From NCBI GenBank assembly GCA_016285835.1, contig JAEERM010000007.1, forward strand, positions 1-64,000: DNA of 64,000 nucleotides. Reading direction: 5' to 3'. The translations under genes and the position numbers were made by a program. The DNA comes from Fibrobacter sp. GTDB taxonomy: Bacteria; Fibrobacterota; Fibrobacteria; Fibrobacterales; Fibrobacteraceae. Under the pieces are notes generated by a model. The model made no database searches, had not been told where the DNA came from, and worked only from the letters and a program-made list of their open reading frames with translations. Below are positions 7,901 through 61,158 of this stretch, piece by piece; the first letter of the stretch is position 1; each line of letters starts with the position of its first letter.

Positions 7901-10900
7901 CGGTCCTGTCGCCCTCGCTCTTCACGATTTCAGTTTCAATCGTCGCGTATTCGTCCCACACTGCATAGAGCGTGTCGACCGTTATTCCAAGGCTCCTGTA
8001 GTTGCGCAGGTCTTCTACGAACTGCGTATTGTAATCAAGATAGTGCTTGGAGCTGCTGCGCGAAATTGCCCAGCCCTGCAAGCGGGCATCCGTGCGGAGC
8101 AGGCCGGTCGGGAAGGCCGTTTCGCCTTCGAGGGCGAAGAATCCCTTGTTGTTCCAGCCGTTCTCGTAGAACACGTGGGCCTTGGTATTTTCGACAAACA
8201 CGAACTGCACGCCGTCGGCCTCGACCGGGATTTCGAGAGTCTTGTCCTCGTCGACCACCAGGGTGCCGTTCTGCAGCGACCCAAGGACATTGCCATCGGA
8301 ATCGACCAGGTTCAAGCTGCTGCCGTTCGCAAAGTAGCCCGAATTGAGCGTCGCAGACACATGGAACACGAGACCGCCCTGGACGAAAGGCACCAACAGT
8401 TCATCAGAGCCCACTTCGAAGTCCTGCGCGCCGGGCACATCCTGCGAGAGCGTAAGGCTACCCGCATTCGGGTTCGAGAGCGCGACCGCGTAGGTGGACT
8501 GTCCGGCATCGGGCACCCAGACCGCATACATCGTCACAGTCGAGGAGCCGTTGGCCTGGAGCACTTCGGAACTCTTTTCGTCATATTTCTGGTAAGTATT
8601 CTCGTAGCCGGACGGGCCACCTTCGGACGTGTAGTAGACCGCGGCGCCGTCGGCAATTTTCGTAAGCGACCAGCCCACCAGCTTGTAGCCCACACGGTAA
8701 ATTTCCGTCGGGAAGGTGCGCTCGGATTCAGACATCGAGATATCGTAGCTGCCCGATGCGTTCCAACCGCTGCCGTAGAACACGTTCACGCCCGTCGCCG
8801 CATTCGCGTCGAATGCCACGGCAAACGCATCGGCCTTCGCAGGGGCCTTCACGATTGTATTGCCAGCGAGCGTAAGCCTGTCGTTCACGAGGGCGGCAAG
8901 GTTGTTGCCGTTCGCATCGACCGTGTAGAAGTAGCTGTTCGCAATCTTCGAGAAGCCCGGGTTCGGGGTGAACTCGACCGCGAAGGAGATATCGCCCTTG
9001 CCGAGCGGGAGCGTGACAGCCTCGTCCTTCACTTCCGTGCTATTGACGATTTCGTCATCCGCATCGCGCTGCACGAGCGTAAGCGTACCCATCTCGGAAG
9101 CAGCCTGGGCGACCGTCACGTTGGAGGTCGTAGCGCAAGTGCCCCAGTCGGCGTAGAGCGCACCGGTGTAATCGCTACCCGCAGCCTCCACCGACGCAGC
9201 AAATTCCGCATCGAACTTGGTAAAGCGACGGTCCGTCTCGGCCGGGGTCGCCAGGAGCGTCCAGCCCTTGATGCAGGCATCCGTACGGTAGAAGTCCATC
9301 GGGAACGCAGCAGAATCGGCAAGCGTGTAGGTGTACTTCGGATTCGCGCCTTCAAGCGGGTTGCCGTAGTAGACCTTGGCATCGCCCGCATTCATGTTGA
9401 ACGTGATAACGTATTCGCTTTCGGCAAGGCCGAGCGCCGCGATGGACATCGCGTGCTTGACAGTCACGCTACCGTTTTCAAGTTCGCCGAGCGGGATGCC
9501 CTGCGGGTCGAAGCTTGCAAAGCCCTTCGTATCATCGTAGGCATAACCCGTCGCCGGAACGAAGGACACCGCAAAGGCGATTCCATCATCGGTTTCGGGA
9601 ACCTGGAGGCCATCATCGCCCACCACGAAGCTGCGGTTACCCTGGGAAAGCGTGAGCACGCCCTTGCCCGAATCGGCAGAATAGACCGTCAGGAGCTTCT
9701 GCTGGCATCCCGCATCCCACACGGCGTAGAGGTCGCCCGAGTTGGCCGCATCGAATGCCGCGACAACGTCACCGTCAAATTCCGTGAATCCCGTCGTCGC
9801 CGTCTCGCTGAAGCTCCAGCCCACGAGGCAGGCATCAGCACGGTAGAGGTTCATGGGGAAGGCCCTTGCATCGGCATCGTCGGTAATCTGGACCGTAATG
9901 TTTTCCACCGGCGTACCCATGTAGAACACATTCGCATCACCCGCATTTTCCTTGAACACGAAGATATACGTGGAAGGGCTAACCGCGGCGGAGAGGGTCA
10001 AGGAAGCTGCGACATTCAGCACGCCCTCATTGATTTCGACAGTGGCGTTGGACGCATCGACCGCGGAGATCCCGTTCATGCTATTGTAGATATAGCCCTT
10101 GTTCGCAGCGAACGAGACCGTAAAGTCGAGAGCTTCGTCAGCCGGCACCTGGAGGGCAGTCTCGCCCACCGTGTATTCGACCGTCGTATTCGAGACCGTG
10201 CGGCTCAGCGTAAACGTACCCGCCAAAGCATCGGCGTTCGCGACCGTCGCAACCGTCTGCGTCGTTTCGCAATCGCCCCACTTGGCATAGAGCGTCGACA
10301 CCGGCATGCCCGCCTTGTTCGCATTCTCGACCGCGGCAACGAATGTCGCATTATACTGCGTATAGGCCGTCGACGTTTCCTTGCCGATAGTCCAACCAGC
10401 AAGACATGCACCCACGCGATAGACGCCCTTCGGGAACGGGATATCTTCGGTAGCGAGCGCATAGTTGTCGCTTTCCTTCCAATCTGCACCGTAGAAGACG
10501 TTTTCGCCTTCTTCCACGTTCACGTCGAACGCGAAGGTGTAGGGCTTGCCGGCGGCAGGAGCATCCACAATCTTGTTGCCATCGACCACAAGGAGGTTGT
10601 CTTCGAGAGCGGCAAACTCGCCCGATCCGTCATCGACAGTAAACGTGCCGTTCTCATCGAATTCGTAGCCTTCGTTCACGTTGAACGACACGGCGAACAC
10701 GATTCCAAGCGGCGCAGCAGGCACATTGAAGCCGTTCGAAGGAACTTCGTAGCTGTTACCATGCTGGCTCAGCACAAGCGTACCTTCCACAGGTTCGTTG
10801 AGCGTAACGGTGTAGAGGGTCTGCGGAGTTTCACATTCATTCCACACGGCATAGAGCACGGGGCTTTCGACACCCGCGGCGATAGCAGCCTTCACAAAGT

Positions 10901-13900
10901 TCGAGTCGAACGTCGCAAAGGATTCCGCCTTGGAGGCATCCTTGCTGAAGCCGTAGCCCACCAGGCACTTGTCTGTACGGTAGACCTTCGGGAACAGGCG
11001 TGCAGATTCGTCCATGCCAAGGTCATAGGAGACCTCCAAGGCATTTTCCGGCCAGTCAGCCGGGTAGAACACGTTCGCGCTGCCCGCATTCACGTCGAAG
11101 GCGACCGTGTATTCGACCGCATTCACCGCACCTGAAATCACCGTATTGGCGGTCATCGTCCAGGGCAGCGGTTCGGCAGACACTTCCACGGCTTCGGCAT
11201 CACCCACCGTGTAAGAGGGGGCGACCGTCTGGTCGAGCGCGTAACCCGGAGCGGGCACCACGCGGAGACCCGAGAAATAGGCAAATTCGCCGACAACCTC
11301 AGTGCCACCGTTTATGGCCTCTTCCCTAGTCGTCACCTTCGGGATCGACACGCCCTCGGCACCGACAGTCGCGACCACCTTGGATTCGCCGTCCACAGTC
11401 TGCATGAGCTCAACCGTAGCCTTGTTCTTCAAGTCATCGGAGAGCGAGACTGTCACGTTCTGGATCGGGTTCGCGCAGCCGGCAGCGTCAGCGCTCCACA
11501 CGGCATAGAGGTCGATATCGCCTTCGATCTCGCGTTCTTCGATTTCCGCAATGAAGTCCGCATCCGCGACATCATAAACGAGGCCATTGTCGTCAAGCTT
11601 CCAGCCCGCAAGGCACTTGTCGGTGCGATAGATGCTTGTGGTCATGGGGCGCCCCACGTTGAGCGTAGCGGTTGCACCCCAGTTTTCACCGTAGAACACA
11701 GCCGTATCGCCCGCATTTTCGTGGTAGACGACGCTGTAATCCACTTTCGACAGACCCTGTACGCGAATCACGGCATTTTCACCAAATTCGACTTCAGAGT
11801 TCCCCGCAACCATGGGCAGCGGATTTTCAGTCGTTTCATCAGACTCGTTCACATAGAAGGCCTGGTATTCGTTGGCAAGCGTCACACCCACCTTCGGAAT
11901 GACTTCCACACGGCTAAAGAAGATGTCATCATCGACACGCGACGTGCTACCTTCTTCATAAGGCGTCGGGCCCGAAGGCAAATAGACCTCGTCACTGCCA
12001 GTCATCTCGAACGCCTTCTGTTCTATTCCATCCAAATTCTGGTAGAACACGACAGTCGCAAGATTCTGGATGCTAGCATCGAGCGTAAGGGCCAATGTTC
12101 CCGTACGGCAGTCAGAATAGCCGTTCCACCTTGCGAACAACGTATCCGCATTCAGGCCGGCCGCAATTCGGTCTGCCCTATCCTTCAACATGCCTGCGGT
12201 CAAAGACAGCTCTTCAACATGCGCAGAAGCATTAGGACTGAAGCTCCAACCGACAAAGCAAGCATCCGAACGGTACACACTACCCATCGGAAGCGTTCCG
12301 CCAATCCTCATCGTTCTCGTCGCAGACCAGGAAGCTCCATAGGCAACCGTTTCTCCCTCTGCATTTGCAGCGAACACGATATCGTACGGAATCTTATTTT
12401 CCTTGAAGCCTACATAGAAGGCATTCGCATTCTGTGCGGCATCGAGATGGAACCATCCATCTTCAGCAACAAGCGGTTCTGTTATTGCAGCCGCATTCGC
12501 CACTATTGCATTCGGATTATTCTCATCAAGTTCAACACCAAAGCCAGGCAAATAGGTAAACGACACATCATAACCTTGAGAATTGTGCGCAAAGACCAGC
12601 TCATCACCATAAGTAGAGCCGTCATCTAGCCAAGCCTTATGGGTAAACACGGCATTGCCAAATTTCTGACTAACGATAATGGTATCCCCGTTAGTCATAT
12701 AATGTTCCTCTTCGCCCTCATAGTAGGAATCGATATAAAGCCTAGCTGTTGTCGGCTGGTTGCATCCATTGCCATATTCCATCCATGTCGCATACAGCTT
12801 CGTCGGAGAGGCCATATCGCTACTGAATTCGTTGACATTCCACGTGGACACTTCCGTATAGATAGGATCAACCTCGGGCTGGGGGCCATTCGGGTCATAC
12901 ATCGACCAACCAGCGAAGCACTTGTCCGTGCGGAAAGGAGTCCACATCGGGGCAGCAGAGCCATCCGCACCAATCTGGAGCGATCCGCTCGGGACTGCAT
13001 CGGCCGGGATCCACACCTTCGAAGAATCTTCTTCGCCGAGGACCAGGTCATACGTCACATACACCGGCTTGTACTGTTCGAACGTCACGCGCATCGGTAT
13101 GTTGCCGAAAACATCCAGTTCGGCACCGTCCTGCGCCAGGATAGTCACGGACTGTCCGTTCACCATCATGTCGTAAGAGAGGCTCTTCAGGAGATAGCCT
13201 TCGGCAGGTTCCACCACCAAATAGTACTTGGAACCAACATTTTCCTCGTAGTCATCGAGAACCCGCGGCAGATGAAGTTCCATCGGCTGGCCTTCGCCCT
13301 TCGAGACAAAGCTATGGGTGATAATCGTCTGTTCGGGGTCATCCGCAGAAACAGGCACGTCCCCAATCTTCTGGACAAGGTAGACATTGCCCGAGCCTTC
13401 GACATTCAAGGTTACCGTGAAGTAGCCGTGGCCTTCGTCGCACACCGGATGTTCCCAGTCCGGTTCAAGCATATTCACAAGGCCGACCTCGCCATCGAAA
13501 GGCGACATGTGGTTCAACTCGCTTGTCACATCAGCAGTTTCACGCTGGGTATCGACTTCGCGACCCTCGAGCTTCCAACCGATGCGGCAACCTTCCTCGT
13601 TGTACAGGCGTGGTGCACGCTCGTGAGCATTGCTTGCAGACACACGGCCCGGATTTTCAAACCAATCTGTCTGATAAGCGTTGTCGACAAACTTGTTTGC
13701 CACGATTACCTTGGATTCCGGCGTCGGGCGGACATAGGTCACATTGTATTCAAGCTCTTCGTAGAGCACATGGAACGTCAAGTCATCCATCGCTTTCGGC
13801 TGGACAATCAACGAATCGTTGGCATTGTTGTAGCCCCAATTTATAGAGCCTGCCTCCGTCAAGTCAACCGATCCCGCACCTGTTTTCTGAGTGTAGGTGA

Positions 13901-16900
13901 AATCCGGATCAATAAACATTCTATATCCCGGATCCGGACGTGCAGATACCGTAAACGAGAGCGTATCGTTATTGTTAGGAATGTAGAGCATATGGCGATC
14001 GTTATCAAACCAGGTCGCATGTTCAAAGCTCAAGTGAACATTTTTCTCGTCATTGTCATAGGTCTGCGTCAACACCAGGCTTCCATGATAATCGGACTCA
14101 TCCGTCAAGGCTTCATCATTATTATCAACCGCAATCACATTCAGTTCAAGCGGAGTCGAGCTATATGTCGAGCTGCTCGCAGATTCGATAATTTCGACGG
14201 CATACACAGTGACCGAAGCATTCTCTTCGTCATTTACCGCAGGCGTGTAATATTCATAGCCATCGGCAAGGAACTGCCCAGCCAATTCGGAATCGAACAC
14301 CTTCGAGTGACCCTCGTACCCCTCAGCCGTCTTCACGCCCCAGTAAGGTGTACCATAGGCAGTCGTACCCTCTTCGCGGACATACACGTTCGGGAACTGG
14401 TATTTATCCTTGTGAACAGACATTTCTCTCGACGATTCCCAGCTACGTCCGAGGAACACATCATTCTTCACATTTTCGAGGCTTAGGTCAACATTATAAT
14501 TTAGGACCGTATAGTCAACAAGGAAGCCTACATTACCATTGACAACCGTAACCTTGCCAGTCGAAGCATCATACCCAGGAGCACGCACACTACTCAGATC
14601 CACCTTGAAGCCCGGAGCCTGTCGAAATTCGACATCAAAGGTGTAGCTATTTTCTGCATACTGGTAGATACGGACACCATGTTTCCATACATACCCATCA
14701 GCAGTCCACCAATTCTCGTAAGTACGCGAATCCGTCGACAACACGATAGGATTACCGCCAATCGTACTATTCTGCTTCACGGTGATGTTTATCGGGAACG
14801 CATAGCAATCAGTATCATCTGAGCCATAGAACAAGCACGAAGATACATAAACAGCTTGGGTGCTGCTATAGGAACCTGTTTCCCAAACCGGGTAAAGGTC
14901 TATCGTCTCCGCGTCACCCGCAGCCGTAATCAGTTCCGGAACCAAGCTAAAGAACAAATCGTTATTATTTTCATAACAGTCATCATCAAAAATCACGCAG
15001 TTCGCCCTGCTTTCGTCTATCGTCCACCCTGCAAGCATAACCGAGCGGCCGTCTATGTTACGACCAAAGAATGTCGGGAAGTTGCGGTTTTCGTCATCAA
15101 GGCCCTGCGGATTTGTCGGATCATTATAATTGTCAGCCACAAACAAGGGGTACTTGCTCCCGTACAGTTCCAATTGACCATCGAAGTGGAACACAACATT
15201 GTAGGGCTTTGCGACATAATTCGGAATAACCGCGAATGTGTCGGCCCAAGTTCCGTTTCCGATTTCAGTCTTTCTCAGCGACCTCGCCATCTTGACATTT
15301 TCCATGCCCACGGTATCTTCGCTCGTGAGGCCACCCACGACCCAAGTCTTGGAGGTACATTCATTCAACCCCAGAGAAAGCTCTTCCCAAGGAGCAACAT
15401 CCTTGGATTCGGACTCGATTGTTCCAACGCTTGCAATATTCTGGCACCTATTATCATTCGGGTTCGACACCATGAACGAAATGGAATAAGAGTCAGCATA
15501 CTCATAGCCGACCGGTGCGGTGAACCCGCTTGCCGCAAAGGCCGCGGCATAAGGAATTGCTGTCGAGCTCTGTCCTACACTCACAGGAACCGTAGAAAGC
15601 GGAGTCTTGTCGCCGGCGCCATCATAGGCATATGTGCTAATGGTAAAGCCCACGCCAGCCGGGTTCTTGACAATTACAGACGGGGCCGAGCCCGAGTTAT
15701 ACTGCACCACAATCTTTGTCACCGCATCCTCTCCACTCACCATACCAATGAGTTCAGAGAACGTAGCAAAGCCGTCTATCGAGACAGGCTCCGGCAGAAT
15801 CGGATCATCGGAATCATCCAGATACAGCACCCTCATCAAGAGGTTGTCACTGGGATCGCTCAGGGCCACAGCATACGGAACAAGCGTCGTGTAGGCGGCC
15901 TCGTTGTTGGAGACTTCGGTCACCTTCGGCGACATGAACACGAAATTCTTGGTCGTCAAATCTTCAATATTATCGCAGGTTTGGTCACAGTACTGATAAA
16001 CGACATCATAAGTCTTTACAGTCCTGTTCGTCATAACGCCGATATTTTCCACGCCATCCGTGAACACCGTATTTGCCGTTATAACATCAGGCGCGCCTTC
16101 GCCCGAAAGGTACGGAGAAAGGCCTTTCGCTTCAAAAGCACGCATAACCGCCTGGAGGCTATCAACGAACATCTTGTTCGCATGCCCACTGGCATCCGTA
16201 TAGCCAACAAAGCCTTTATACTCTTCATTAACGGTCGGCGCGTTGCCACTCATGTCAATAGATTGATAAACTGCGTTCAAGCCAAACGCCTCCTGCTGTT
16301 CCTGCAACAGAGACGCGGCATCCGCAACCACCAACGGCAACAAGTAATTCGACTTATCAGCAGGCGTTGCTATCGAAGGAAGCGCATTGCCAGACTGCGT
16401 CCACACATACACCGAAGCATTCCAGACCGTCACCTGGTTCATGGCGGCGGCAAACATCGCCGATTTCATTTCCGACTCGTTCACTACGCCATTGGCCACG
16501 CGGCCAAACGTATTCCCGCTCAAATCCGCGGCAAAGAAATCTGTGTAGGAAGCCTCGACCGGACCTCCACTCAACTCATAGTAGTGATACCCAATCTTTC
16601 CATCATCCGTAAGGCCAGTCACCAGGTTGCGCACGTTGGCGAAATAGGCATCGCTACCTGTTTTCCAATCCGCTTCAGAAACATTACCAATACCGGTAGC
16701 AACAGCATCCGTACCAAAGTGGTAGTTAGCATAGACATGGGCATTGGAGCCATTCGACACGAAATAACCGCCAAGGTAGCCCACATTCGCATTTGTCGCG
16801 TCCACTCCGGAATAGGTGATATCGCCATTGGAGTAGCTTCCGTAGATAGTCAAAATCGCACCATCGACAAAGCCAAAGAACGGGCCCATGTTCAAGGTAT

Positions 16901-19900
16901 TCTGCGTGCCGGAGTTCGTGAAGGACACATTACCGTTGAAAGCCACCTTGTTTATACTGAGGCTTCCATTTCCCGAGCTGTTATCCAATACAACATCACC
17001 GAACAGGCCGCCAACTTTTGCTTCGGACGTCATACTCGCAACAGACCCAGTCACGTTTCCATTAAAGACGATGTTTGTCGCTATCGGGGTTACGCTTCCA
17101 TAATTGGTATTTGTCACCCGGCCAGCCAAGCCGCCAACAACGGAGCCACCCGAGACGTTAACGTCAACAAGAAGATCCCTGAACTCGACGCTCTTATCGC
17201 CTTCGGAACCGCCCGAAGAAAAGTGACCATAGCCAAGGAGACCGCCTGCCACAACCGTACCGGTAACGGAGTTAGAGCCGGAAAGGGTCGCACCCTCGAC
17301 ATGCCAGTCGCCATAATCGTTATCGCCGACACTGCCAGCAAGACCACCCGCATACGCACCCGAGACCGTAATATTTTCAAGGTTCGAGTTCATCACGATC
17401 AGCCACTGGACGTCGCCAGCCAAGGCACCGACATAAGGCGTTCCGTGAGTGCCGCCAACAGAAAGTCCGCTCACCAAAGATTGCCGTACATTCACAAGGT
17501 AATTCGGATCATTGATGGAGGTCTGATATCCAATAAAGCCACCACGGTAAGAATTTCCCGAACCCGTATAGGATGCATCATCGGCAACGAGGCCAGCACC
17601 GGCAGTCGTCACCATGACCGTATCTTCCACGAAAGCCAGATGGGTAATTCCATTTGCATAACCCACAAAGCTACCCGCAGCAGAAGTCATTACGCCCTGG
17701 TTTGCGGCATCCAAGCCATAGACCTTGGTATCGACAACACCCGAATTTTGAATGGTATGGTTCTCGTATCCGGAAACCTTTCCTGCAAAGGCTCCCGCCT
17801 GGGTTCCCGCCACATAAGAATTTGTCACGCGGACATTAGAGAAGGTGGAACTCTCCCGTGCGATATCGTCGGTAACAATACCGACGACGCTTCCCAGTTC
17901 CGCGTTCTTCACCACGACATGCGCGTTGTCGAACGTGACATTGCGGACCGTCTTTACACCCTTCATGAAGCCCATGGAATTATCGCCCGAGCCATCGTTA
18001 TCCTCGTAACAGAATCCGGAAATGGTATAGTATTCGCTGCGGCCATCGAATTCTGCATTTGTATTAGAGAACTGGATGGGTGTAAAGTTGGCCATTTTAC
18101 ACTTGTTGTTGGTTTCGTCATAACCGCCAAAATCAAGATTGGTGGCAAGCCTTACAGAATAAGTAGGATAGCTATTTGAAAATTCATCAACCAAATCACC
18201 CCAGCACTTAAAATCGTTCGTACCTTCGTTCGGAGACGTCACCGCCTCTTGAGAAATGGAGCACCACCAGCTAGAACAATTCAGGTGGAAATACGTCCCA
18301 TTTGTAAGGCAGCCGTTCTCGTCGAAGGTGACCGTGCTCGGATTCGCAAAGACCGGCGTCACTGTCACTGGTTTGTCAGGCATGGTAAAATAGTATCCGT
18401 TAGTTCCATTTGAATACGCATACACAGACTGTCCACCTTCGGTTTCCACAACATCCACACGAACAAGCTGAGCCCCTTCATCAGGAACAGCCGTCAAATT
18501 AACCCGTTCATCAACAAAAGCCGTCTGTTTGTCACTCGTCACATGGCCAAATTGAGCAGACTCAATAGTTACCGCATGCGGCGTAATGAAGGTCGGGGTT
18601 ACCGTCACATCCCCGTACGGCATGGTAAACGACACCGTAGTCTCGTTTCCAGTCGTGGCAATGGTGCCTTCTATATTGTTTCCATATTCATCGACAATCT
18701 GGACACTACTATACACGTAGTTTTCATCCGGAATCAAGCTCAACGTGACCACAGAACCGGCCGTATAATTCCCCGCACCTTCCATGGTTCCACCGGCAAT
18801 ACCATCCGCCAGAGATACCGCATGCGGTACAGAAGCATCCATGAGAGTCGCAGTCAGATTGAGGCCCGACGCATTCGCCGACCATGTAAGGAAACGAAGC
18901 GTCATCGTCCTGCCCGTGCCCACCACCGTACCGATATCTTTACTGCCACTCACGGTCTTGAGCGTCGCTGCTTCAGTGTTTCCATCAAAGAAAGTCAACC
19001 AACCGTAATAATCAGAATAAACATCCGTGTAGCCAGTCACCTGCAACACATAGCCTTCCGGAACGGTCAGTTCCAGTTCGCCGGTGCCGGTAGTGTAGTA
19101 GCCATTTTCACCGCCATTATCATATATCTTGAACGATGCAACACCATCGGGGATTGTCGCAACCGTAGTCCCGGAAACAGGCATATTGATGAACAAGCCG
19201 TCTTCTGCCGTCAGCGCCTCGGTAAACGAGGGTGTCGCCGTAACAAAGGTATTGGGCATGGAGAACGTAACCGTATTGTTGGTGTACCAGCCACCAGATG
19301 TTTCCAAATAATTCTGCTCTCCGTCCATGACTATGACGTTGTCAAGCAAGAACCCTTGATCCGGAGTTGCAACCAAAGCGACTTCCGTACCATAAGTCGC
19401 AGATGCCGGTGTGCTGACGACATTCCCACCCGGAGCCGTTCCAACCTCTATATCATGCTCCGGCGCAGGCACAAGGGTCACCGTCAAATCAAGACCGGCA
19501 TCAGTCAGCGAATAGTTCGAATAAAAATAGATGGTCATGACTCGTCCGGAGAGAACCGGCCCTACGTCCATCTCACCGTATATGGCGTCCACCAGCACCT
19601 TGGAATCCGCAGGCCCATCATAAATTGTCAACACGTCATTGTACTGCGTATGGATGCTGCCGGTCACCTGCAGCAAGAAGCCTTCCGGAGCCGTCATTTC
19701 CAGGTAGGCATTAGCGGTGTTGCTGTAGTAGCCCGGATTATTCGCGTCTTGGCCATCATCGTAGACCTTGAACGTGGTCCTGTTCGAGGGGATGGCGAGG
19801 GTATATTCACCCCTCACAGGCAAGTTCACAAAGAAGCCGCCGTTACCGTCGCTAGTAAGCGAGACTTCTTCGGCCCAGGATGCAGCGGCCGCAAACAGCG

Positions 19901-19943
19901 CGGTCATCGCGCAAAGGAAAAACGCATGAATCTTTGTCTTCAT
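4953..19943 (-). CDS. giant secreted surface protein with CUB-like domains, GLUG-like region, ~12 InlB/Flg_new-like repeats and T9SS-like C-terminal domain
   Basis: ORF open from 20006; likely start ATG at 19943 preceded by AGAGGAATCT with signal peptide MKTKIHAFFLCAMTALFAAAASWAEE; repeated GWS...LYAVW motifs; C-terminus GLYMLRVRAGSQMKAGRIMVK. Confidence 0.9.
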   Translation of the reverse strand: MKTKIHAFFLCAMTALFAAAASWAEEVSLTSDGNGGFFVNLPVRGEYTLAIPSNRTTFKVYDDGQDANNPGYYSNTANAYLEMTAPEGFLLQVTGSIHTQYNDVLTIYDGPADSKVLVDAIYGEMDVGPVLSGRVMTIYFYSNYSLTDAGLDLTVTLVPAPEHDIEVGTAPGGNVVSTPASATYGTEVALVATPDQGFLLDNVIVMDGEQNYLETSGGWYTNNTVTFSMPNTFVTATPSFTEALTAEDGLFINMPVSGTTVATIPDGVASFKIYDNGGENGYYTTGTGELELTVPEGYVLQVTGYTDVYSDYYGWLTFFDGNTEAATLKTVSGSKDIGTVVGTGRTMTLRFLTWSANASGLNLTATLMDASVPHAVSLADGIAGGTMEGAGNYTAGSVVTLSLIPDENYVYSSVQIVDEYGNNIEGTIATTGNETTVSFTMPYGDVTVTPTFITPHAVTIESAQFGHVTSDKQTAFVDERVNLTAVPDEGAQLVRVDVVETEGGQSVYAYSNGTNGYYFTMPDKPVTVTPVFANPSTVTFDENGCLTNGTYFHLNCSSWWCSISQEAVTSPNEGTNDFKCWGDLVDEFSNSYPTYSVRLATNLDFGGYDETNNKCKMANFTPIQFSNTNAEFDGRSEYYTISGFCYEDNDGSGDNSMGFMKGVKTVRNVTFDNAHVVVKNAELGSVVGIVTDDIARESSTFSNVRVTNSYVAGTQAGAFAGKVSGYENHTIQNSGVVDTKVYGLDAANQGVMTSAAGSFVGYANGITHLAFVEDTVMVTTAGAGLVADDASYTGSGNSYRGGFIGYQTSINDPNYLVNVRQSLVSGLSVGGTHGTPYVGALAGDVQWLIVMNSNLENITVSGAYAGGLAGSVGDNDYGDWHVEGATLSGSNSVTGTVVAGGLLGYGHFSSGGSEGDKSVEFRDLLVDVNVSGGSVVGGLAGRVTNTNYGSVTPIATNIVFNGNVTGSVASMTSEAKVGGLFGDVVLDNSSGNGSLSINKVAFNGNVSFTNSGTQNTLNMGPFFGFVDGAILTIYGSYSNGDITYSGVDATNANVGYLGGYFVSNGSNAHVYANYHFGTDAVATGIGNVSEADWKTGSDAYFANVRNLVTGLTDDGKIGYHYYELSGGPVEASYTDFFAADLSGNTFGRVANGVVNESEMKSAMFAAAMNQVTVWNASVYVWTQSGNALPSIATPADKSNYLLPLVVADAASLLQEQQEAFGLNAVYQSIDMSGNAPTVNEEYKGFVGYTDASGHANKMFVDSLQAVMRAFEAKGLSPYLSGEGAPDVITANTVFTDGVENIGVMTNRTVKTYDVVYQYCDQTCDNIEDLTTKNFVFMSPKVTEVSNNEAAYTTLVPYAVALSDPSDNLLMRVLYLDDSDDPILPEPVSIDGFATFSELIGMVSGEDAVTKIVVQYNSGSAPSVIVKNPAGVGFTISTYAYDGAGDKTPLSTVPVSVGQSSTAIPYAAAFAASGFTAPVGYEYADSYSISFMVSNPNDNRCQNIASVGTIESESKDVAPWEELSLGLNECTSKTWVVGGLTSEDTVGMENVKMARSLRKTEIGNGTWADTFAVIPNYVAKPYNVVFHFDGQLELYGSKYPLFVADNYNDPTNPQGLDDENRNFPTFFGRNIDGRSVMLAGWTIDESRANCVIFDDDCYENNNDLFFSLVPELITAAGDAETIDLYPVWETGSYSSTQAVYVSSCLFYGSDDTDCYAFPINITVKQNSTIGGNPIVLSTDSRTYENWWTADGYVWKHGVRIYQYAENSYTFDVEFRQAPGFKVDLSSVRAPGYDASTGKVTVVNGNVGFLVDYTVLNYNVDLSLENVKNDVFLGRSWESSREMSVHKDKYQFPNVYVREEGTTAYGTPYWGVKTAEGYEGHSKVFDSELAGQFLADGYEYYTPAVNDEENASVTVYAVEIIESASSSTYSSTPLELNVIAVDNNDEALTDESDYHGSLVLTQTYDNDEKNVHLSFEHATWFDNDRHMLYIPNNNDTLSFTVSARPDPGYRMFIDPDFTYTQKTGAGSVDLTEAGSINWGYNNANDSLIVQPKAMDDLTFHVLYEELEYNVTYVRPTPESKVIVANKFVDNAYQTDWFENPGRVSASNAHERAPRLYNEEGCRIGWKLEGREVDTQRETADVTSELNHMSPFDGEVGLVNMLEPDWEHPVCDEGHGYFTVTLNVEGSGNVYLVQKIGDVPVSADDPEQTIITHSFVSKGEGQPMELHLPRVLDDYEENVGSKYYLVVEPAEGYLLKSLSYDMMVNGQSVTILAQDGAELDVFGNIPMRVTFEQYKPVYVTYDLVLGEEDSSKVWIPADAVPSGSLQIGADGSAAPMWTPFRTDKCFAGWSMYDPNGPQPEVDPIYTEVSTWNVNEFSSDMASPTKLYATWMEYGNGCNQPTTARLYIDSYYEGEEEHYMTNGDTIIVSQKFGNAVFTHKAWLDDGSTYGDELVFAHNSQGYDVSFTYLPGFGVELDENNPNAIVANAAAITEPLVAEDGWFHLDAAQNANAFYVGFKENKIPYDIVFAANAEGETVAYGASWSATRTMRIGGTLPMGSVYRSDACFVGWSFSPNASAHVEELSLTAGMLKDRADRIAAGLNADTLFARWNGYSDCRTGTLALTLDASIQNLATVVFYQNLDGIEQKAFEMTGSDEVYLPSGPTPYEEGSTSRVDDDIFFSRVEVIPKVGVTLANEYQAFYVNESDETTENPLPMVAGNSEVEFGENAVIRVQGLSKVDYSVVYHENAGDTAVFYGENWGATATLNVGRPMTTSIYRTDKCLAGWKLDDNGLVYDVADADFIAEIEEREIEGDIDLYAVWSADAAGCANPIQNVTVSLSDDLKNKATVELMQTVDGESKVVATVGAEGVSIPKVTTREEAINGGTEVVGEFAYFSGLRVVPAPGYALDQTVAPSYTVGDAEAVEVSAEPLPWTMTANTVISGAVNAVEYTVAFDVNAGSANVFYPADWPENALEVSYDLGMDESARLFPKVYRTDKCLVGYGFSKDASKAESFATFDSNFVKAAIAAGVESPVLYAVWNECETPQTLYTVTLNEPVEGTLVLSQHGNSYEVPSNGFNVPAAPLGIVFAVSFNVNEGYEFDENGTFTVDDGSGEFAALEDNLLVVDGNKIVDAPAAGKPYTFAFDVNVEEGENVFYGADWKESDNYALATEDIPFPKGVYRVGACLAGWTIGKETSTAYTQYNATFVAAVENANKAGMPVSTLYAKWGDCETTQTVATVANADALAGTFTLSRTVSNTTVEYTVGETALQVPADEALDFTVSFAANKGYIYNSMNGISAVDASNATVEINEGVLNVAASLTLSAAVSPSTYIFVFKENAGDANVFYMGTPVENITVQITDDADARAFPMNLYRADACLVGWSFSETATTGFTEFDGDVVAAFDAANSGDLYAVWDAGCQQKLLTVYSADSGKGVLTLSQGNRSFVVGDDGLQVPETDDGIAFAVSFVPATGYAYDDTKGFASFDPQGIPLGELENGSVTVKHAMSIAALGLAESEYVITFNMNAGDAKVYYGNPLEGANPKYTYTLADSAAFPMDFYRTDACIKGWTLLATPAETDRRFTKFDAEFAASVEAAGSDYTGALYADWGTCATTSNVTVAQAASEMGTLTLVQRDADDEIVNSTEVKDEAVTLPLGKGDISFAVEFTPNPGFSKIANSYFYTVDANGNNLAALVNDRLTLAGNTIVKAPAKADAFAVAFDANAATGVNVFYGSGWNASGSYDISMSESERTFPTEIYRVGYKLVGWSLTKIADGAAVYYTSEGGPSGYENTYQKYDEKSSEVLQANGSSTVTMYAVWVPDAGQSTYAVALSNPNAGSLTLSQDVPGAQDFEVGSDELLVPFVQGGLVFHVSATLNSGYFANGSSLNLVDSDGNVLGSLQNGTLVVDEDKTLEIPVEADGVQFVFVENTKAHVFYENGWNNKGFFALEGETAFPTGLLRTDARLQGWAISRSSSKHYLDYNTQFVEDLRNYRSLGITVDTLYAVWDEYATIETEIVKSEGDRTGSFFISQTVNDVTTEPIEVTASGVEIPRSSKGITFNVNYEVKPGYRIASESAITKSDISGEVLGSTTNGGTLVFGQEQSLALDASVSAVPYKFAYNVNGGDANVFYGDNWSSTDDKTLDDESVALPNNIYRADAKLVGWSVDSNATEGSFDLTSEFVREMGDASEVRTLYAVWMPAEVETYTVSFANTNVGSLVLTQDVEDSTVSFAVADTGLVVPVVEGGLRFKAAYTLKAGFSGSTDSLYVLDDLTGFLTSLTDGNLTVAEDVTLAIPTEGETFNVVFHVNREKEVLFYGNDWKEKASYKLDDSTVSIPLPAYLYTANACMVGWSLDRAGEGTAYTEFTSDFADILLSDGKKDMYNLYAVWGTGKECESAYDRVALESVNGSIRLVEPAEDSKPAVEHIFAVDNTIILPKVMNGNMLRVVSVPDSSFMLDSLVVLRDGSDDRQMLRDGDALPFSLHGASLVAFFGKSNRTDIEFVKPELALSGNAVQFSFTTSEFEVTRNVSARIVLRMEGVSEPVVDTVFADSIVPPYSGAWQMFPLAAGKYVLTAELFDAKGSVDTTAFFEVKAEIAAVAEDGWQMISLVNLDKKAMDWSDDDARFYWWDESTSMGDFWQYRAFSPDDEIEPTRGYWYSSIKGRPLVLKPTADVVLEGAVWNLDSINSGWNLVANPYGFSLNIYGENPHANSDPSEKSDVIFWRWNAEISDYEEAVVIKPYEAVWAEVRHSMDWKLPVKPEFADKDSSEQDSLAPALSKRILAKAANSKNWTLQAVLSDLRGKKDAWNIFGASTSPFVTNEPPEGMGDRVNLSIVEGNRKLAKSVKAPADELEWDVELSATSDRVGELSFKGVESLREVGLKVFVTVDGKTTEMHEGETLRVNLTSFAKKATVRVAPAAKVVASFSIDALRYVKSGANVGVTFEASEGLAGSRTVVDILGMDGKVVSSRSATTLAGVNQLVLDAPKPGLYMLRVRAGSQMKAGRIMVK

Positions 19944-21989: not shown

Positions 21990-22928
21990 TTATTTTTCGC
22001 CTTTGAGCAATTCTTCGAAGAAGACGATTGTCTTTTCGAGCCCCTGGCGCAGCGGGATTGTCGGTTCCCAACCGAGGGCAGACTTGGCAAGGTCGATATT
22101 CGGGCGACGCATCTTGGGATCGTCGCCGGGGAGCGGCTTGTACACAATCTTGCTCTTGGAACCCGTCAGGTCAAGGACTTCCTTCGCAAGTTCGAGCATC
22201 GTAAATTCGCCAGGGTTGCCGATGTTCACCGGGCCAATTATCTTGTCCTGATTCATCATGCGCACAAAACCTTCGATGAGATCGTCCACGTAGCAGAAAC
22301 TGCGCGTCTGGCTGCCGTCGCCGTAAATCGTGAGGTCTTCGCCCTTGAGTGCCTGCACAATGAAGTTGCTCACTACGCGGCCGTCGTTCATGAGCATACG
22401 CGGGCCGTAAGTATTGAAAATACGCACGATGCGGATATCGACATTATTTTGTCTATGATAATCCATGAAAAGCGTTTCGGCAACGCGCTTGCCTTCGTCG
22501 TAGCAACTGCGGATGCCGATGGGGTTCACGTTTCCCCAATAGTCTTCGGTCTGCGGGTGTACCGCCGGGTCGCCGTAAACTTCACTTGTACTGGCCTGTA
22601 AGATGCGAGCCTTCACGCGTTTGGCCATGCCGAGCATGTTGATAGCGCCCATCACGCTCGTCTTGATTGTCTTTACCGGGTTGAACTGGTAATGGATGGG
22701 GCTTGCGGGGCATGCGAGGTTGAAAATGCGGTCCACTTCCAGGAGGATGGGTTCCGTCACGTCGTGGCGGATGAGCTCGAAGCAGCGGTTATCGCGCAGG
22801 TGGGCGACATTCGCCATACGGCCCGTAAAGTAGTTGTCAAGGCAAATCACCTCGTGCCCGTCGTTCAGCAGACGTTCACACAAGTGACTCCCCAGGAATC
22901 CTGCACCACCAGTAACTAAGCAACGCAT
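21990..22928 (-). CDS. NAD-dependent epimerase/dehydratase, UDP-glucuronate decarboxylase-like
   Basis: [38 protein letters not shown] active-site motif; [18 protein letters not shown]. Confidence 0.88.
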
Positions 22929-22942
22929 AAGCACTCCTTGCA

Positions 22943-22974
22943 GTAGGAAGTAGGAAGTAGACAGTAGACAGTGG
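22943..22974. repeat. short heptamer array GTAGGAA GTAGGAA GTAGACA GTAGACA
   Basis: Exact and near-exact 7-bp units just upstream of the epimerase start. Confidence 0.85.
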
Positions 22975-22979
22975 TAAAA

Positions 22980-23813
22980 CTAGTCATCGGAATCACGCTC
23001 TAATTCAGCGGCACCGTTCCCGCGGAGAGCCACGAGCCGGACACCATTCAATGTCAAATAAGGATCGTAAGTGTCGATGACCTTGCTGTGGCCCATGACC
23101 ATGCGGCCCCAGCCGCCCGTTGCAAACACGGGGACCTTCTTCCGGCCCATCTCGGCCTTAATCTTTTCGACTAACGTTTCGAGCTCCGCCATGAATCCGT
23201 ACAAAAGGCCCGCACGGATAGCGTCGTCCGTATTGTTCGCAATCACATGGTCCGGCCACTCGATGCTCACGGGCATCAAGCGCGCGGCCTTCTCGGTCAA
23301 CACGTCCAAACTGGCACTGATTCCGGGGATGATGATACCGCCCGCAAACCCGCCATCCTTCATCACATCGAAAGTCGTCGCCGTGCCCATGTCCACCACA
23401 ATGGCATCCTTGTAGCCGCGGTCGCGCAACGCAATCACGTTGCAAAGGCGGTCGGAGCCGAGGGTCGCCGGGTTCGGGTAAGCAATCGGGCAATCCAGGC
23501 AGTTCTTGGAACTCACCACCTGTACCGGGCGTTTGAGGAGCGTCTGCAAAGCCTTGATCCACGGGCGTTCAAGTACCGGCACCACCGTCGAAAGGCCCAC
23601 ATGTGTAATCACCGAGGGCTTGATTTCGGAGAAACGAATGAGACCGCCAATGCGGTTCATCACTTCGTCGCTTGTGGTTTCTTTGCGGGTGGTAAGCCTC
23701 CAATGGTCCACCACCTTGTCGCCCTTAAAAATACCCAAAACAGTATGGGAGTTGCCCACATCTACTACAAAAGAAAACTTTTCTGAATTTTTTGAACTTT
23801 TCTTCATCTGCAA
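22980..23813 (-). CDS. coaX: type III pantothenate kinase
   Basis: FVVDVGNSHTVLGIFKGDKVVDHWRLTT; TLGSDRLCNVIA; VVDMGTATTFDVM; GGIIIPG. Confidence 0.9.
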   Translation of the reverse strand: MQMKKSSKNSEKFSFVVDVGNSHTVLGIFKGDKVVDHWRLTTRKETTSDEVMNRIGGLIRFSEIKPSVITHVGLSTVVPVLERPWIKALQTLLKRPVQVVSSKNCLDCPIAYPNPATLGSDRLCNVIALRDRGYKDAIVVDMGTATTFDVMKDGGFAGGIIIPGISASLDVLTEKAARLMPVSIEWPDHVIANNTDDAIRAGLLYGFMAELETLVEKIKAEMGRKKVPVFATGGWGRMVMGHSKVIDTYDPYLTLNGVRLVALRGNGAAELERDSDD

Positions 23814-26351: not shown

Positions 26352-27215
26352 CTAGATTCGCATCGAAATATCGAGAGCTTTCACGCTATGCGTAAGCGCA
26401 CCGACGGAGATGTAGTCCAGGCCGAGCGTCGCGATTTCCTTTGCACGTTCGAGCGTCATGTTGCCGGAACCTTCCACCAGGCACTTGTCGCCGCTTTCCT
26501 TGATAATCTTCAAAGCCTCGGCCATCATCTCGTTGCTCATGTTATCAAGCATGATGACATCAACACCCTTATTAAGGAGCGCGCGCAACTGGTCGAAGTT
26601 TTCGACTTCCATTTCGACCATCAGGTTCTGCTTGTTGTTCTTCTTCACCACTTCGAGCGCCTGGAGAACACCGCCCGCCGCAGCGATGTGGTTATCCTTC
26701 ACGAGCACCATGTCGAAGAGTCCCATACGGTGGTTGGAACCGCCCCCCACCCGCACCGCATACTTCTGCAGCGTACGGAAACCGGGAACCGTCTTGCGCG
26801 TATCAAGCACCTTCGTCTTGCCACCCTTCAAAGCTTCCTGGAAAGTATGTGCAACCGTTGCCACGCCGGAGAGTTGCTGGATAAAGTTCAAAAGCGTGCG
26901 TTCACCCGTCAGGAGTTCGTGCGTCGTGCCGTCCATTTCGGCAATCAAATCGCCCTTCTTCACCACGTCACCATCTTTCTTGTGGAGCGTCACCTTCACA
27001 TTCGCCTTGAGTTCCTGGAACACGAGTTCAATCACCGGGAGGCCGGCAAGCACACCGTCTTCCTTGGCAATCAGGCGGGCATGCTGCTTTTGGTCAGCAG
27101 GGATGGTCCACTCGCTCGTGACATCACCCGTGCGCACATCTTCGGCAAGCGCCAAGCGAATCATCGTGAGGGCATCTTCGGTAGGGAATTTGGGAGTTGA
27201 GTTATCGCCGTACAT
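26352..27215 (-). CDS. nadC: nicotinate-nucleotide pyrophosphorylase (carboxylating)
   Basis: LALAEDVRTGDVTSEWTIP; RTLLNFIQQLSGVAT; LDTRKTVPGFRTLQKYAVRVGGGSNHRMGLFDMVLVKDNHI. Confidence 0.95.
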   Translation of the reverse strand: MYGDNSTPKFPTEDALTMIRLALAEDVRTGDVTSEWTIPADQKQHARLIAKEDGVLAGLPVIELVFQELKANVKVTLHKKDGDVVKKGDLIAEMDGTTHELLTGERTLLNFIQQLSGVATVAHTFQEALKGGKTKVLDTRKTVPGFRTLQKYAVRVGGGSNHRMGLFDMVLVKDNHIAAAGGVLQALEVVKKNNKQNLMVEMEVENFDQLRALLNKGVDVIMLDNMSNEMMAEALKIIKESGDKCLVEGSGNMTLERAKEIATLGLDYISVGALTHSVKALDISMRI

Positions 27216-27339
27216 GGTTAGTGATTGGTGGTTAGTGATTGGTGGTTGGTGGTTAGTGGTTAGTAGGAAGTAGGATGTTGGAAGTAGGAAGTTGGAAGTT
27301 ACTGTCTACTGCCTACTGTCTACTGCCTACTGTTTTCTG
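27216..27339. repeat. degenerate heptamer tandem array with facing inverted block
   Basis: GTGATTG GTGGTTA GTGATTG GTGGTTG GTGGTTA GTGGTTA GTAGGAA ... then TCTACTG CCTACTG TCTACTG CCTACTG. Confidence 0.9.
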
Positions 27340-28791
27340 CTATTGCGCTCCTTTTCCGGTCAGCACCACATATACGGTTCGAACCAGAATCTGGAAATCA
27401 AGCAGCAAACTCATATTCTCGTAGTAATACATGTCGTACTGCAACTTGATTTGCACATCCTCGATGCTCGTATCGTAATGGTGACGCACCTGAGCCCAGC
27501 CAGTGAGGCCCGGCTTCATCTTGAGGCGGCTGATGTAGAACGGAATCTTTTCGCGGAGCTTGCCGATAAACACAGCACGTTCAGGGCGCGGGCCGACCAT
27601 GCTCATATCGCCCTTGAGCACACAGAAAATCTGCGGGAGTTCGTCAATGCGGGTCTTGCGCAGGAACTTGCCCACCTTCGTAATACGCGGGTCGTCTTTG
27701 GTTGCCCACTGAGCACCGAACTTTTCGGCATCGGTACGCATGGTGCGGAATTTATAAACCGTAAAGGGCTTGCCGTACAGGCCGATGCGTTCCTGCGAAT
27801 AGAGCACTGGGCCGCGGTCCTCGAGCTTGATAGCAATGGCTGCCAAAATGCAAACCGGTAGCGAGCACAATCCCAAAAACGCTCCAAACAAAATATCGAT
27901 AATGCGCTTGACTTGCACTTGCCAAGGGGGCATCGTAAACGCAAACAGTTCCTGCAATTCAAAGCCATAAACGAGGTTCGCCTTGAACTGGCCATTCACC
28001 ACACCATAAAGTTCCGGGACAATATAAATATGGAGAGGCAGTTCGCAAATCCACACGAGCACTCGCATGATTTCTTGCGGAGAGGCACTATCGTGAGCGA
28101 TGATGATACCACTGACCTTGAGTTTTTTCACAAGCGCAGGCAAATCGGAATACTTGCCCAATACAGGATACCCCGCAAACTCGTGATCCATCACTTGGAA
28201 GCGTTCATCGACAAAACCGATAACCCGATGGCCACGCGCCGGAGTCTTAGCAAGCGATTCTGCAATTTTACGGCCAGCTTCTGTCGCGCCAAGGACCAGG
28301 ATATTATTCGCACCATAACCTAGGCGCAAAAAACCGCGCAGGCACCAGTAGATAACCATGCGGAATCCAGCCACCAGCGTAAGGGCGAGACCACCATAAA
28401 TGAATATCCACGGGAATCGCGAGCCGTAGAGATAACCCTCGCTCAATGGCGAATTGGCAAAGACCTTCCCGACAAATTCCGCACCGAACAACCCGACAAT
28501 GACAAGCACAATCCCCAGAGCGACGGCGCGGAGCACCCTCAAAATCTGGTGGGTACGGGACATCAGGAGCCAAGAACGGTACAAGCCGGCACAGGTAAAG
28601 AGCAAAAGCCAGCCCAAGTTGAGAACTAGGCCCATGTGCCAATATTCATCAAATGTCTTGCTCGGGTCAAACTTGTCTACAATCCAGCCACTATGGAACT
28701 GCACCCAGAACGCCAAGGCGAAACAAATCGACAAGGCGGCAAAGTCCGAAAGGACTAAGAGGATTCGTTCCAACGTGGTTGCGCGTATCAT
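27340..28791 (-). CDS. polyprenyl glycosylphosphotransferase (WbaP/WcaJ-like exopolysaccharide sugar transferase)
   Basis: N-terminal TM segments; [71 protein letters not shown]. Confidence 0.92.
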
Positions 28792-30104: not shown

Positions 30105-30151
30105 AGGGCGTCTCCATTTTTAAATTTTTTCGGGAGAAAAGATAGAAATTA

Positions 30152-30235
30152 GTAGTTAGTGGTTTGTGGTTAGTGGTTTGTAATAATGACGAAAAAAGCA
30201 ACTATCTTGTTTACTAACCACTACATACCAACCAC
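30152..30235. repeat. heptamer array between divergent hom and sugar transferase genes
   Basis: GTAGTTA GTGGTTT GTGGTTA GTGGTTT then inverted ACTAACCACTACATACCAACCAC. Confidence 0.75.
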
Positions 30236-46317: not shown

Positions 46318-46800
46318 CTGCGCTTTGAGCTATGAGGTCGGCACTTCGTGCCTTTGAGGTCGCTCCCTTCGGTCGCTTTGAGGCACGAGGTCGGTCGCTA
46401 CGCTCCCTTCGAGGTGTGAGGTGAGTAGGAAGTAGACAGTAGGAAGTAGGAAGTGATTAGTGGTTGGTGGTTAGGAAAATAGACGAGAGAGGAAAAAGTT
46501 GTCATTCGCAGGCGCATGACTTGTCGGCTCAGCCATGCCGAAACGCAAGCGTTTTGGCACGGCATTCGCCTTGGTTGTCATTGCGAGGGGCGATTGCCAG
46601 AGCCTGCCGCGAGCGAAGCGTGGCGGAAGCAATCTCTAGGTATGGGTTAGGGATAAGAATCTAGGATCTAGAGACTAGGGAGAAATATCACGGCTTCGCC
46701 GTCTTATATTGACGCACGAAGTGCGTGATTCTTTTCACTAGCCTCTTTTCTCTAGTCTCTCGAAGCCTCACTGCTCATTGCTCATAGCTCACTGTTCGTG
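46318..46800. repeat. composite intergenic repeat: hairpin words plus degenerate heptamer arrays (left member of inverted pair)
   Basis: GAGGTCGGCACTTCGTGCC..., GTAGGAA/GTAGACA, GTGGTTG, AGACGAG, CTAGGATCTAG, ACGGCTTCGCCGT, CGCACTTCGTGCG, ACTGCTCATTGCTCATAGCTCACTG; inverted copy at 56735-57085. Confidence 0.9.
46575..46637 (+). repeat. dispersed element TTGTCATTGCGAGGGGCGA...GGAAGCAATCTCT
   Basis: Inverted shorter copy at 58946-58984. Confidence 0.8.
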
Positions 46801-47185: not shown

Positions 47186-47259
<74 letters not shown>

Positions 47260-56552: not shown

Positions 56553-56734
56553 GCCTTATACCCTGCCTCGATTATTTTCTCTATATAAGATACTATCAAA
56601 AAGGGGAAATATTCCAATCGAGAGTTTCTTTTTCTTTACACTGTGATAGGGCGCAAGTGCAAAAACTGCCCAAAATACTACAAAATGACAGGCGTCACAT
56701 GTTTAATTTTGTACAACACTTTTTTGGGGTAAGA

Positions 56735-57080
56735 GGCTAGGATCTAGAGGCTAGAATCTAGGGGGATGAGGCGCGAGCGGTGAGGTATGAGCAGTGAGCT
56801 GTGAGGCTTCGAGAGACTAGAGAATACCTTTGACCACTTAGTGCTTTAGCACTTATGTGGGCATGGCCACCTTTAGGTGGGAGGCTAGTGAAAAGAATCA
56901 CGCACTTCGTGCGTTAGTAACAGACGGCGAAGCCGTGATATTTTTCCCTAGATCCTAGATCCTAACCCCTAACCTCTATTTACCGCACACCTCAAAGGCA
57001 CGAAGTGCCGACCTCGTGCCTCAAAGCGAGCTTGCGAGCGACCTCGTGCCTCGAAGGGAGCGTAGCGACCGGCCTCGCAC
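56735..57080. repeat. composite intergenic repeat (right member of inverted pair)
   Basis: AGGCTAG GATCTAG AGGCTAG AATCTAG ..., CGCACTTCGTGCG, ACGGCGAAGCCGT, CCTAGATCCTAGATCC, GGCACGAAGTGCC. Confidence 0.9.
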
Positions 57081-58904: not shown

Positions 58905-59045
58905 AAGTTTCGAGGCTCGGGCCTCATACCCTTCAGATGACTAGCGGAGATTGCTTCGGGGCTCTTCGCCCCTCGCAATGACAATTCCTGCGACCAGTCA
59001 CGCCTTCTCTCTCGTCTTTCGTCTCTCGTCTCTCGTCTACTAACT
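58905..59045. repeat. composite intergenic repeat with GACGAGA heptamers and GTCATTGCGAG element
   Basis: Reverse complement GACGAGA GACGAGA GACGAAA GACGAGA ... TTGTCATTGCGAGGGGCGAAGAGCCCCGAAGCAATCTCC. Confidence 0.85.
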
Positions 59046-59871: not shown

Positions 59872-59975
59872 TAGGGGTTAGGGGCTAGAGGCTAGGATCT
59901 AGGGGAAAAATAGGGATTAGGGGTTAGAGATTTGGATTTAAGAGTCAGCCTCTAGATCCTAGTCTCTAATCAACA
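59872..59975. repeat. heptamer array GGGGTTA/GGGGCTA/GAGGCTA/GGATCTA
   Basis: Degenerate 7-bp units upstream of rnc start. Confidence 0.85.
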
Positions 59976-60033: not shown

Positions 60034-60276
60034 TTAAGCCTTCTTGGATTCGATGAAGGCGACCACGTCGGCAACCTTCTGGAACTTTTCGGCATCGGAA
60101 TCGAGGATTTCGACTTCGAATTCGTCTTCGAGAGCCATAACCAGTTCAACGCGATCGAGAGAGTCCGCACCCAGGTCATTGCCGAATTCGGATTCCATCT
60201 TCACGTCTTCGGCCTTGACTTCGAGCTTGGCGACGATGACGTCGGTAATCTTCTTGAAAATTTCTTCTTGTGTCAT
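60034..60276 (-). CDS. acpP: acyl carrier protein
   Basis: FGNDLGADSLDRVELVMALEDEFEVEILD with phosphopantetheine Ser. Confidence 0.96.
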   Translation of the reverse strand: MTQEEIFKKITDVIVAKLEVKAEDVKMESEFGNDLGADSLDRVELVMALEDEFEVEILDSDAEKFQKVADVVAFIESKKA

Positions 60277-61064: not shown

Positions 61065-61078
61065 AGTAGAACCTTCTT

Positions 61079-61157
61079 AGTAGGAAGTTAGAAGTTGGAA
61101 GTAGGAAGTTAGATGTAGGAAGTTTCTGTCTACTGTCTACTTCCTACTGTCTACTTT
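61079..61157. repeat. heptamer array with facing inverted block
   Basis: GTAGGAA GTTAGAA GTTGGAA GTAGGAA GTTAGAT GTAGGAA then TCTACTG TCTACTT CCTACTG TCTACTT. Confidence 0.9.
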
Positions 61158-61158
61158 T

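Follow-up and report, generated by a model that had tools for sequence, protein, structure and literature searches.

The period-7 tracts that populate the intergenic spacers of Fibrobacter are, in the reading that we favor and hold to be moderately probable, the arms of short, dispersed, and imperfect inverted-repeat elements that spread to, or are exchanged between, spacers. In a complete element, a G-rich heptamer arm is followed by a C-rich arm of related words, in some cases with a small hairpin core in between, and the elements are located in intergenic spacers, tight against the ends of the genes. In our best reading they are mostly selfish or neutral, with arms that change by slippage of 7 bp and by the replacement of whole arms. 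The inverted-repeat interpretation is drawn from the excess of period 7, the intergenic bias, the order and polarity of the arms, the vocabularies of individual spacer slots, a copied junction, a conserved core found in both orientations, hybrid elements, and exact 7-bp differences between species. The stretch of 64,000 nucleotides analyzed here, referred to as the window, comes from a 3.5-Mb draft genome assembled into 212 contigs, which we call G000. Its genus is Fibrobacter, named records of which matched genomes of this genus with nucleotide identities of up to 82% to 91% over kilobases.

In a preliminary description of the window, 9 intergenic loci had been named as composed of 7-bp units, and TRF placed arrays of period 7 or 14 at, or within, each of these 9 loci, which were also recovered by a sliding period-7 test of G000. 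At a strict threshold, 397 kb of G000 contained 43 period-7 tracts, none of periods 5, 8, 11, and 13, a single tract of period 10, and 2 to 9 tracts each of periods 6, 9, 12, 15, and 18, with periods 14 and 21 being multiples of 7. At a looser threshold, 134 period-7 tracts were found in 955 kb, as compared with 4 in an order-1 Markov control; the counts were 3 to 5 for periods 5, 8, 11, and 13, and 3 to 11 if period 10 was included. Period-7 tracts are thus strongly enriched. The tracts were intergenic in 66 cases and placed within genes in 2, which supports the earlier proposal of a dispersed intergenic heptamer family akin to the STRRs of cyanobacteria.

An origin of the tracts as assembly artefacts was refuted by their presence in many separately assembled genomes, in some cases with identical sequences at orthologous slots, as for the AGTAGACAGTAGGAAGTAGGCAGTAGACAG tract, which was the same base for base in G000 (locus L138) and G030. 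It was also noted that many contig starts in G000 had a heptamer tract no more than about 1 kb away (for example C3:547, C4:416, C14:846, C22:826, C39:246), which means that the repeats probably break the assembly and that their number is undercounted. The tracts were found across the genus with a patchy distribution: the matches to one word pattern ranged from 0 to 189 in near-complete genomes, and the pattern GATCTAGNNTCTAG was common in only 6 of 41 Fibrobacter genomes. In G009 and G011, the reversed, non-complemented pattern (MRGATGA units) was present while the forward pattern was nearly absent, which suggests yet another vocabulary. The words had further been described as strung together in a recurring order, which was borne out in G000 (40 of 113 four-word strings repeated, versus 16.1 ± 4.5 after shuffling) and G030 (16 versus 7.7 ± 2.8), but not in G010 (0 of 24).

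The tracts do not stand alone as drifting tandem arrays; many of them are paired arms in inverted orientation, so that the unit is the hairpin element that the two arms make up. If R denotes an arm with a G-rich sequence on the strand being read and Y its C-rich counterpart, R preceded Y in the two-arm pairs of four Fibrobacter species, which occurred in many spacers, and no pair with Y before R was found in these species, with the exception of one composite of five arms (RYYRY). Because an R-Y pair reads as R-Y on either strand, it constitutes an inverted repeat in which the outer ends are fixed. The word sets of the two arms overlapped yet differed, and words ending in C (AGTAGAC, AGTAGGC, AGTAAAC) accounted for 45% near stop codons versus 20% near start codons. 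Counting against the inverted-repeat reading, many tracts had a single arm or lacked a core, and the pairing of the arms was imperfect.

Furthermore, the G-rich strand was read away from the nearest gene in 119 cases and toward it in 9 for tracts within 40 bp of a gene in Fibrobacter, in counts over dispersed, related copies that do not represent independent events. The rule was independent of gene direction: it held at both 3' and 5' ends, in spacers between convergent (28:1) and divergent (13:1) genes, and likewise between co-directional ones, and a tie between polarity and transcription was rejected because all three types of spacer follow this one rule. No strand bias was observed in gene flanks free of tracts (83:103 and 103:102).

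An alternative that we judge to be unlikely is that the tracts arise in place by polymerase slippage only, and that translation has acted as the filter behind their orientation. A C-rich sense strand near starts would then avoid false ribosome-binding sites, and a G-rich strand near stops would add stop codons in all frames. This would account for the single-unit changes of 7 bp between sister species, for the G-poor sense strand of the words adjacent to starts, for the occurrence of TAG, TGA, or TAA in most G-rich words, and for the enrichment of TAG stops among genes directly bordered by tracts (27 of 40 versus 164 of 468 in G000). However, the polarity at 3' ends persisted in a small set of words free of stop codons (12:3) and in words with stops on the C-rich strand only (4:0), and an origin of the polarity from stop codons alone was rejected on the basis of the stop-free words. 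The polarity is also evident in spacers between convergent genes, where start codons are absent, and slippage leaves the replacement of whole tracts, the copied junctions, and the conserved core unexplained.

Several arrangements of the arms are represented in the window. The element at positions 27216 to 27339 fills the exact gap between nadC (quinolinate phosphoribosyltransferase; 26352-27215, minus strand) and a sugar transferase gene (Bac_transf; 27340-28791, minus strand), and is predicted to form an RNA hairpin (fold z -4.5). Read on the minus strand, it contains an AGTAGGC/AGTAGAC arm, the junction AGTAGACAGTAACTTCC, and TTCC plus TAACCAC words that continue to the ATG of nadC; the orthologous slot in the sister genome G008 contains a TAGGGGT/TAGGATC hairpin instead. 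Between two divergent genes, a G-rich arm of AGTGGTT and TTTGTGG words (30150-30181, plus strand) pairs with the C-rich arm TTTACTAACCACTACATACCAACCACT (30209-30235, plus strand) in a hairpin with a fold z of -3.4. A single G-rich arm of two AGTAGGA units, two AGTAGAC units, and a final AGT (22942-22974, plus strand) is located between two genes on the minus strand, and its orientation agrees with the polarity rule relative to the gene at 21990-22928 (5' end) but violates it relative to the gene at 22980-23807 (3' end).

All of the loci named in the preliminary description were of period 7, but the regions 46425-46800 and 56735-57000 are composite, with other palindromes in addition to the heptamers. 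The first contains a G-rich arm of two word families, AGTAGGA/AGTAGAC followed by AGTGATT/GGTGGTT (46424-46474, plus strand), around which the intergenic composite spans 1.2 kb in G000 versus 0.45 kb in G008. It further contains a G-rich arm of TAG words (TAGGATC, TAGAGAC, TAGGGAG; 46636-46684, plus strand), a variant of the core with the sequence CACGGCTTCGCCGTCTTATAT and a second small palindrome (46685-46731, plus strand), which may be compared with CACGGCTTCGCCGCGATTAT in G008 (locus L316), and C-rich partner arms of CACTAGCC/CTCTAGT followed by GCTCACTGCTCATTGCTCAT-type words (46732-46800, plus strand). The second composite, of which the G-rich arms AGAGGCTAGGATCTAG and then GAGCGGTGAGGTATGAGCAGTGAGC (56732-56806, plus strand) are kept in G008, contains another copy of the variant core (56895-56941, minus strand), inverted relative to the first, and the C-rich arm CCTAGATCCTAGATCCTAACCCCTAACC (56942-56983, plus strand). 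The exact core was absent from the window, in which these are the two variant copies. A different dispersed palindrome (TTGTCATTGCGAGG...GAAGCAATC) was observed inside or beside heptamer composites at 46570-46640 and 58950-58995, and a repeat of about 30 bp (GAGGTCGCTCCCTACGCTCCCTTCGAGGCAC) at 46356-46422 and 57008-57077, inverted between the two composites.

Three further elements are associated with a run of genes on the minus strand. A GACGAGA/GACGAAA arm (59008-59043, minus strand) is located directly 3' of the stop codon of rnc (RNase III; 59044-59865), and its copy in G008 contains one additional 7-bp unit. A TAG-word hairpin (59872-59966) is located in the spacer between acpP (acyl carrier protein; 60034-60276) and rnc, beyond a terminator-like hairpin of acpP, and has a fold z of -3.8 over a stretch that includes the acpP hairpin. 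The spacer between fabD (acyl transferase domain; 61159-62082) and fabG (60324-61064), which served as a flanking gene for the comparison of orthologous slots, contains an AGTAGAC/AGTAGGA hairpin (61079-61157), and the single-strand RNA fold of positions 61062-61170 is weak (z -1.35). Elsewhere in the window, the genes at 666-4844 and 47509-49155 have an N-terminal part in common and matched the same G008 gene at 93% to 96%, the former with a long low-complexity repeat region, and one open reading frame, about 5000 codons long, spans positions 4953-19943. Searches of the 64-kb window with Rfam covariance models gave no match beyond the tRNA at 47186-47259.

Collinearity between the sister genome G008 and the window extends from approximately 26 to 62 kb, and the comparison of G000 with G008 covers about 20 spacers. 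Among the 7 tract-containing spacers of the window with an ortholog in G008, the tract was kept in 3 and a different tract was present in 4. Two of the kept tracts differed by exactly 7 bp, and the third was 94% to 96% identical with two larger indels; an exact 7-bp difference was also seen between G008 and G013. Drift of the units within a locus, as first suggested, thus accounts for a part of the change, and between species the words changed to a greater extent by replacement of the whole tract.

The fabD-fabG slot contained at least 5 different vocabularies, or was nearly empty, among species in which the FabG proteins were 85% to 100% identical. It was occupied by a GACGAGA hairpin in G008 and G013, by AGTGGTT/AGTAAAC words in G012 and G024, by GAGCAGT in G020, and by AGGCTCG in G016, while a spacer of only 7 to 8 nt without a hairpin was found in G029 and G023 (7 nt in both), G028, and G002. 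The content of the slot differed although its flanks were 96% to 97% identical to G008 on both sides, and replacement through recombination of the neighboring sequences was rejected on these grounds. In the acpP-rnc slot, the TAG-word element was whole in both G000 and G008, with an additional 7 bp in the latter, and other word families were found in G018 and G013. The GACGAAA hairpin in G013 was located inside a surviving outer C-rich end of the TAG-word element; the remnant is the older and the hairpin the newer of the two. In G034, G036, G035, and G019, a palindrome of the TGTCATCCTGAGC...GAAGGATC type was observed in the same fabD-fabG or acpP-rnc slots.

The junction AGTAGACAGWAACTTCC was present at 5 unrelated loci in G000, two of which have an identical string of about 40 nt in common, and otherwise only in G013 and G018, that is, in 3 genomes in total. 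Taken together, the kept and replaced slots, the copied junctions, and the inverted core are consistent with whole elements being copied and replaced, with additional slippage by single units. Weighing against inverted-repeat elements, we found no clean example of an empty site accompanied by a target-site duplication. As for the features that define MITEs, inverted arms with fixed ends were present, a target-site duplication could not be defined in the two slots compared, and no cognate transposase was identified.

The core, GGCGGC-NNN-GCCGC-GATTAT, was often located between arms of quite different words. The core pattern GGCNNNGCCGCGATTAT was identified in 33 of the 41 Fibrobacter genomes, with up to 29 copies each, and the reversed control gave no matches. 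A period-7 arm adjoined 36 of the 42 copies that were read, and the copies were flanked by at least 8 vocabularies (AGTAGAC, AGTGGTT/AGTAAAC, TAGGGGC, AATTATG, TTCGGAA, GTCATTG, GAGTTAT, and GACGAAA). The arms matched each other better within an element than between elements (13.5 versus 10.1), and in the hybrids L322, L335, and L336, the words to the left of the core differed from those to the right, as if arms had been exchanged at the core. At one slot, the core had opposite orientations in L329 and L337 versus L332, being inverted in G022 relative to G010 and G020. In a small, hand-picked alignment, 3 of the 5 stem pairs had changed on both sides, which for this reason serves as supporting evidence only. 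A viral source of the core was rejected, with 2 matches in 2.9 million viral contigs.

Could the hairpins instead be selected at the RNA level? They would then separate cistrons, through RNase III cleavage, attenuation, or protection of 3' ends, with the structure under selection while the sequence turns over, a proposal that we find distinctly improbable. In its favor, the hairpin layout is constant while the words change, 34 of about 40 intergenic core copies for which both neighbors were called are located between co-directional genes, and several elements fold as clear RNA hairpins (z -3.4 to -5.0). Against it, the fabD-fabG spacer is free of hairpins in the four species listed above, tracts are equally frequent in divergent spacers (12 of 88) and operon spacers (48 of 369), and the core is found in both orientations. 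Moreover, the folding excess is modest: the median fold z was -3.65 in co-directional spacers with two arms versus -2.33 in ordinary spacers. Convergent spacers with tracts folded more weakly than ordinary terminators, and a role as simple terminators was rejected because tracts folded no better than ordinary convergent spacers. The effect of the inverted-repeat elements is likely to be passive, as a hairpin within an operon transcript, and we do not think that they are required regulators, but the orientation of the core leans toward the sense strand (23:11, with a few loci counted twice), which allows for some function.

In the inverted-repeat reading, copies in the form of hairpin-forming DNA would spread to spacer slots or be traded among them, with template switching and a trans-acting transposase as examples of the mechanism. 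Their arms would grow and shrink by slippage of one unit, and recombination, either at the core or between short words that are shared, may exchange whole arms. Because insertions into coding and promoter sequences would be purged, elements would accumulate downstream of a stop codon or terminator and upstream of the next ribosome-binding site. No transposase was found to track the repeats among the RVT_1 and Y1_Tnp families, which counts against such elements. Spread driven by a reverse transcriptase was rejected because RVT_1 was absent from the repeat-rich genomes G000, G010, and G030, and spread driven by RAYTs because Y1_Tnp was absent from the repeat-rich genomes G006, G010, and G030. 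Of the 4 Y1_Tnp loci that were read, 3 had no heptamer tracts, and one (L091) had a single tract at a distance of about 250 bp.

Similar loci were found in many phyla, among the matches listed, when one genome per species was scanned for three AGTAGRM units. The listed matches included 107 loci outside Fibrobacter, 18 of which had R followed by Y and none the reverse, and the G-rich strand was read away from the nearest gene in 54 cases and toward it in 3 (within 40 bp, with rough gene calls), with 57:6 in a second test on AGT words. All of the scanned words contain TAG, and a filter by stop codons may apply in these phyla; in Fibrobacter, the stop-free words largely set such a filter aside. 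Across the sampled loci, the shared polarity and arm order point to one common process. A much bolder extension, to which we give little credence, is a class of mobile hairpins with a small conserved core and exchangeable heptamer arms, whereby each lineage rewrites its spacers in its own vocabulary and the same process lies behind heptamers across phyla; the arms would come either from synthesis in steps of seven bases that proceeds outward from broken ends or from a supply in trans. Least credible of all are break-healing scars, whereby G-rich heptamers would be added in a telomere-like manner to 3' ends at spacer breaks and the ends joined head to head, which would account for the arm order, the polarity at both gene ends, the differing arm words, and the outermost position of older remnants, but leaves the shared core and the identical arm-junction strings at unrelated loci unexplained, and for which no reverse transcriptase tracks the repeats and we know of no candidate enzyme.

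Heptamer repeats in bacterial genomes were noticed long ago and have lacked an explanation. The finding that sister species swap whole vocabularies at the same spots while the layout is kept opens this little-understood class of repeats to direct testing. In Fibrobacter, there are many related species among which a given spacer is either empty, occupied, or occupied anew by another vocabulary, and the rates, mechanism, and cost can thus be measured directly.

The STRR heptamers of filamentous cyanobacteria (Calothrix) are tandem and intergenic, with several words per genome. They are mentioned in a study of other heptamers (PMC4692102), and in the open-licence literature available to us, the arm pairing, core, and vocabulary exchange found in Fibrobacter were not reported. 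In Beggiatoaceae, Cyanobacteria, and Bacteroidetes, TAACTGA heptamers occur mostly as one exact word in direct repeats just upstream of start codons, and were proposed to be sites for a translational regulator, with a single indirect repeat and no core among the reported features (MacGregor 2015; PMC4679880). They are like the Fibrobacter tracts in being intergenic with differences in steps of 7 nt, and the AGTTATC word, a minor word in G000, is the TAACTGA heptamer read from the other strand. However, the Fibrobacter arms are located at both gene ends rather than as exact direct repeats upstream of starts.

REPs and REPINs are dispersed extragenic palindromic repeats associated with RAYT transposases (PMC3733652, PMC3116915), and the Fibrobacter elements are likewise dispersed, extragenic, hairpin-forming inverted repeats with fixed outer ends. 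They differ from REPs and REPINs in their heptamer arms and in the lack of both a tag common to all families and a consistent RAYT. The terminal GTAG (or CGTC) tag, which REPs and REPINs have on a GC-rich palindrome, was not general, with GTAG in one vocabulary only and absent from the AGTGGTT, GAG, GAC, and AAT vocabularies, and no RAYT (Y1_Tnp) flanked by the repeats was found among the 4 Y1_Tnp loci that were read.

A further close parallel is provided by the G-rich intergenic heptamers GGGAATC in Xanthomonas and GGGGA(C/T)T in Nostoc (Rehm et al. 2015; PMC4692102), which have a polarity relative to genes, vary in length and sequence between close species, and in Xanthomonas include many convergent inverted pairs; their role was left open in that study. 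Like the Fibrobacter tracts, these are over-represented intergenic tandem units of 7 bases with the same polarity and with inverted pairs. Unlike them, the Fibrobacter tracts comprise many vocabularies per genus and per genome rather than one word type per organism, and, by sequence, most of the words (AGTAGAC, AGTGGTT, GACGAGA) lack GGG runs, four of which would be able to form a G-quadruplex; only the TAGGGG words contain such runs. With bare intergenic heptamers known from Xanthomonas, Beggiatoaceae, Cyanobacteria, and Bacteroidetes, it was too strong to call them the most unusual non-coding signal in the window. In the open-licence literature, we found nothing on such repeats in Fibrobacter or on their exact words, and no conserved core or vocabulary exchange for heptamer repeats. 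Intergenic heptamers, their polarity, and their inverted pairs are thus already known from Xanthomonas (PMC4692102), whereas the replacement of whole slots and the conserved hairpin core set Fibrobacter apart from these heptamers, and the core, the swap of vocabularies, and the generality across phyla are, as far as we found, new.
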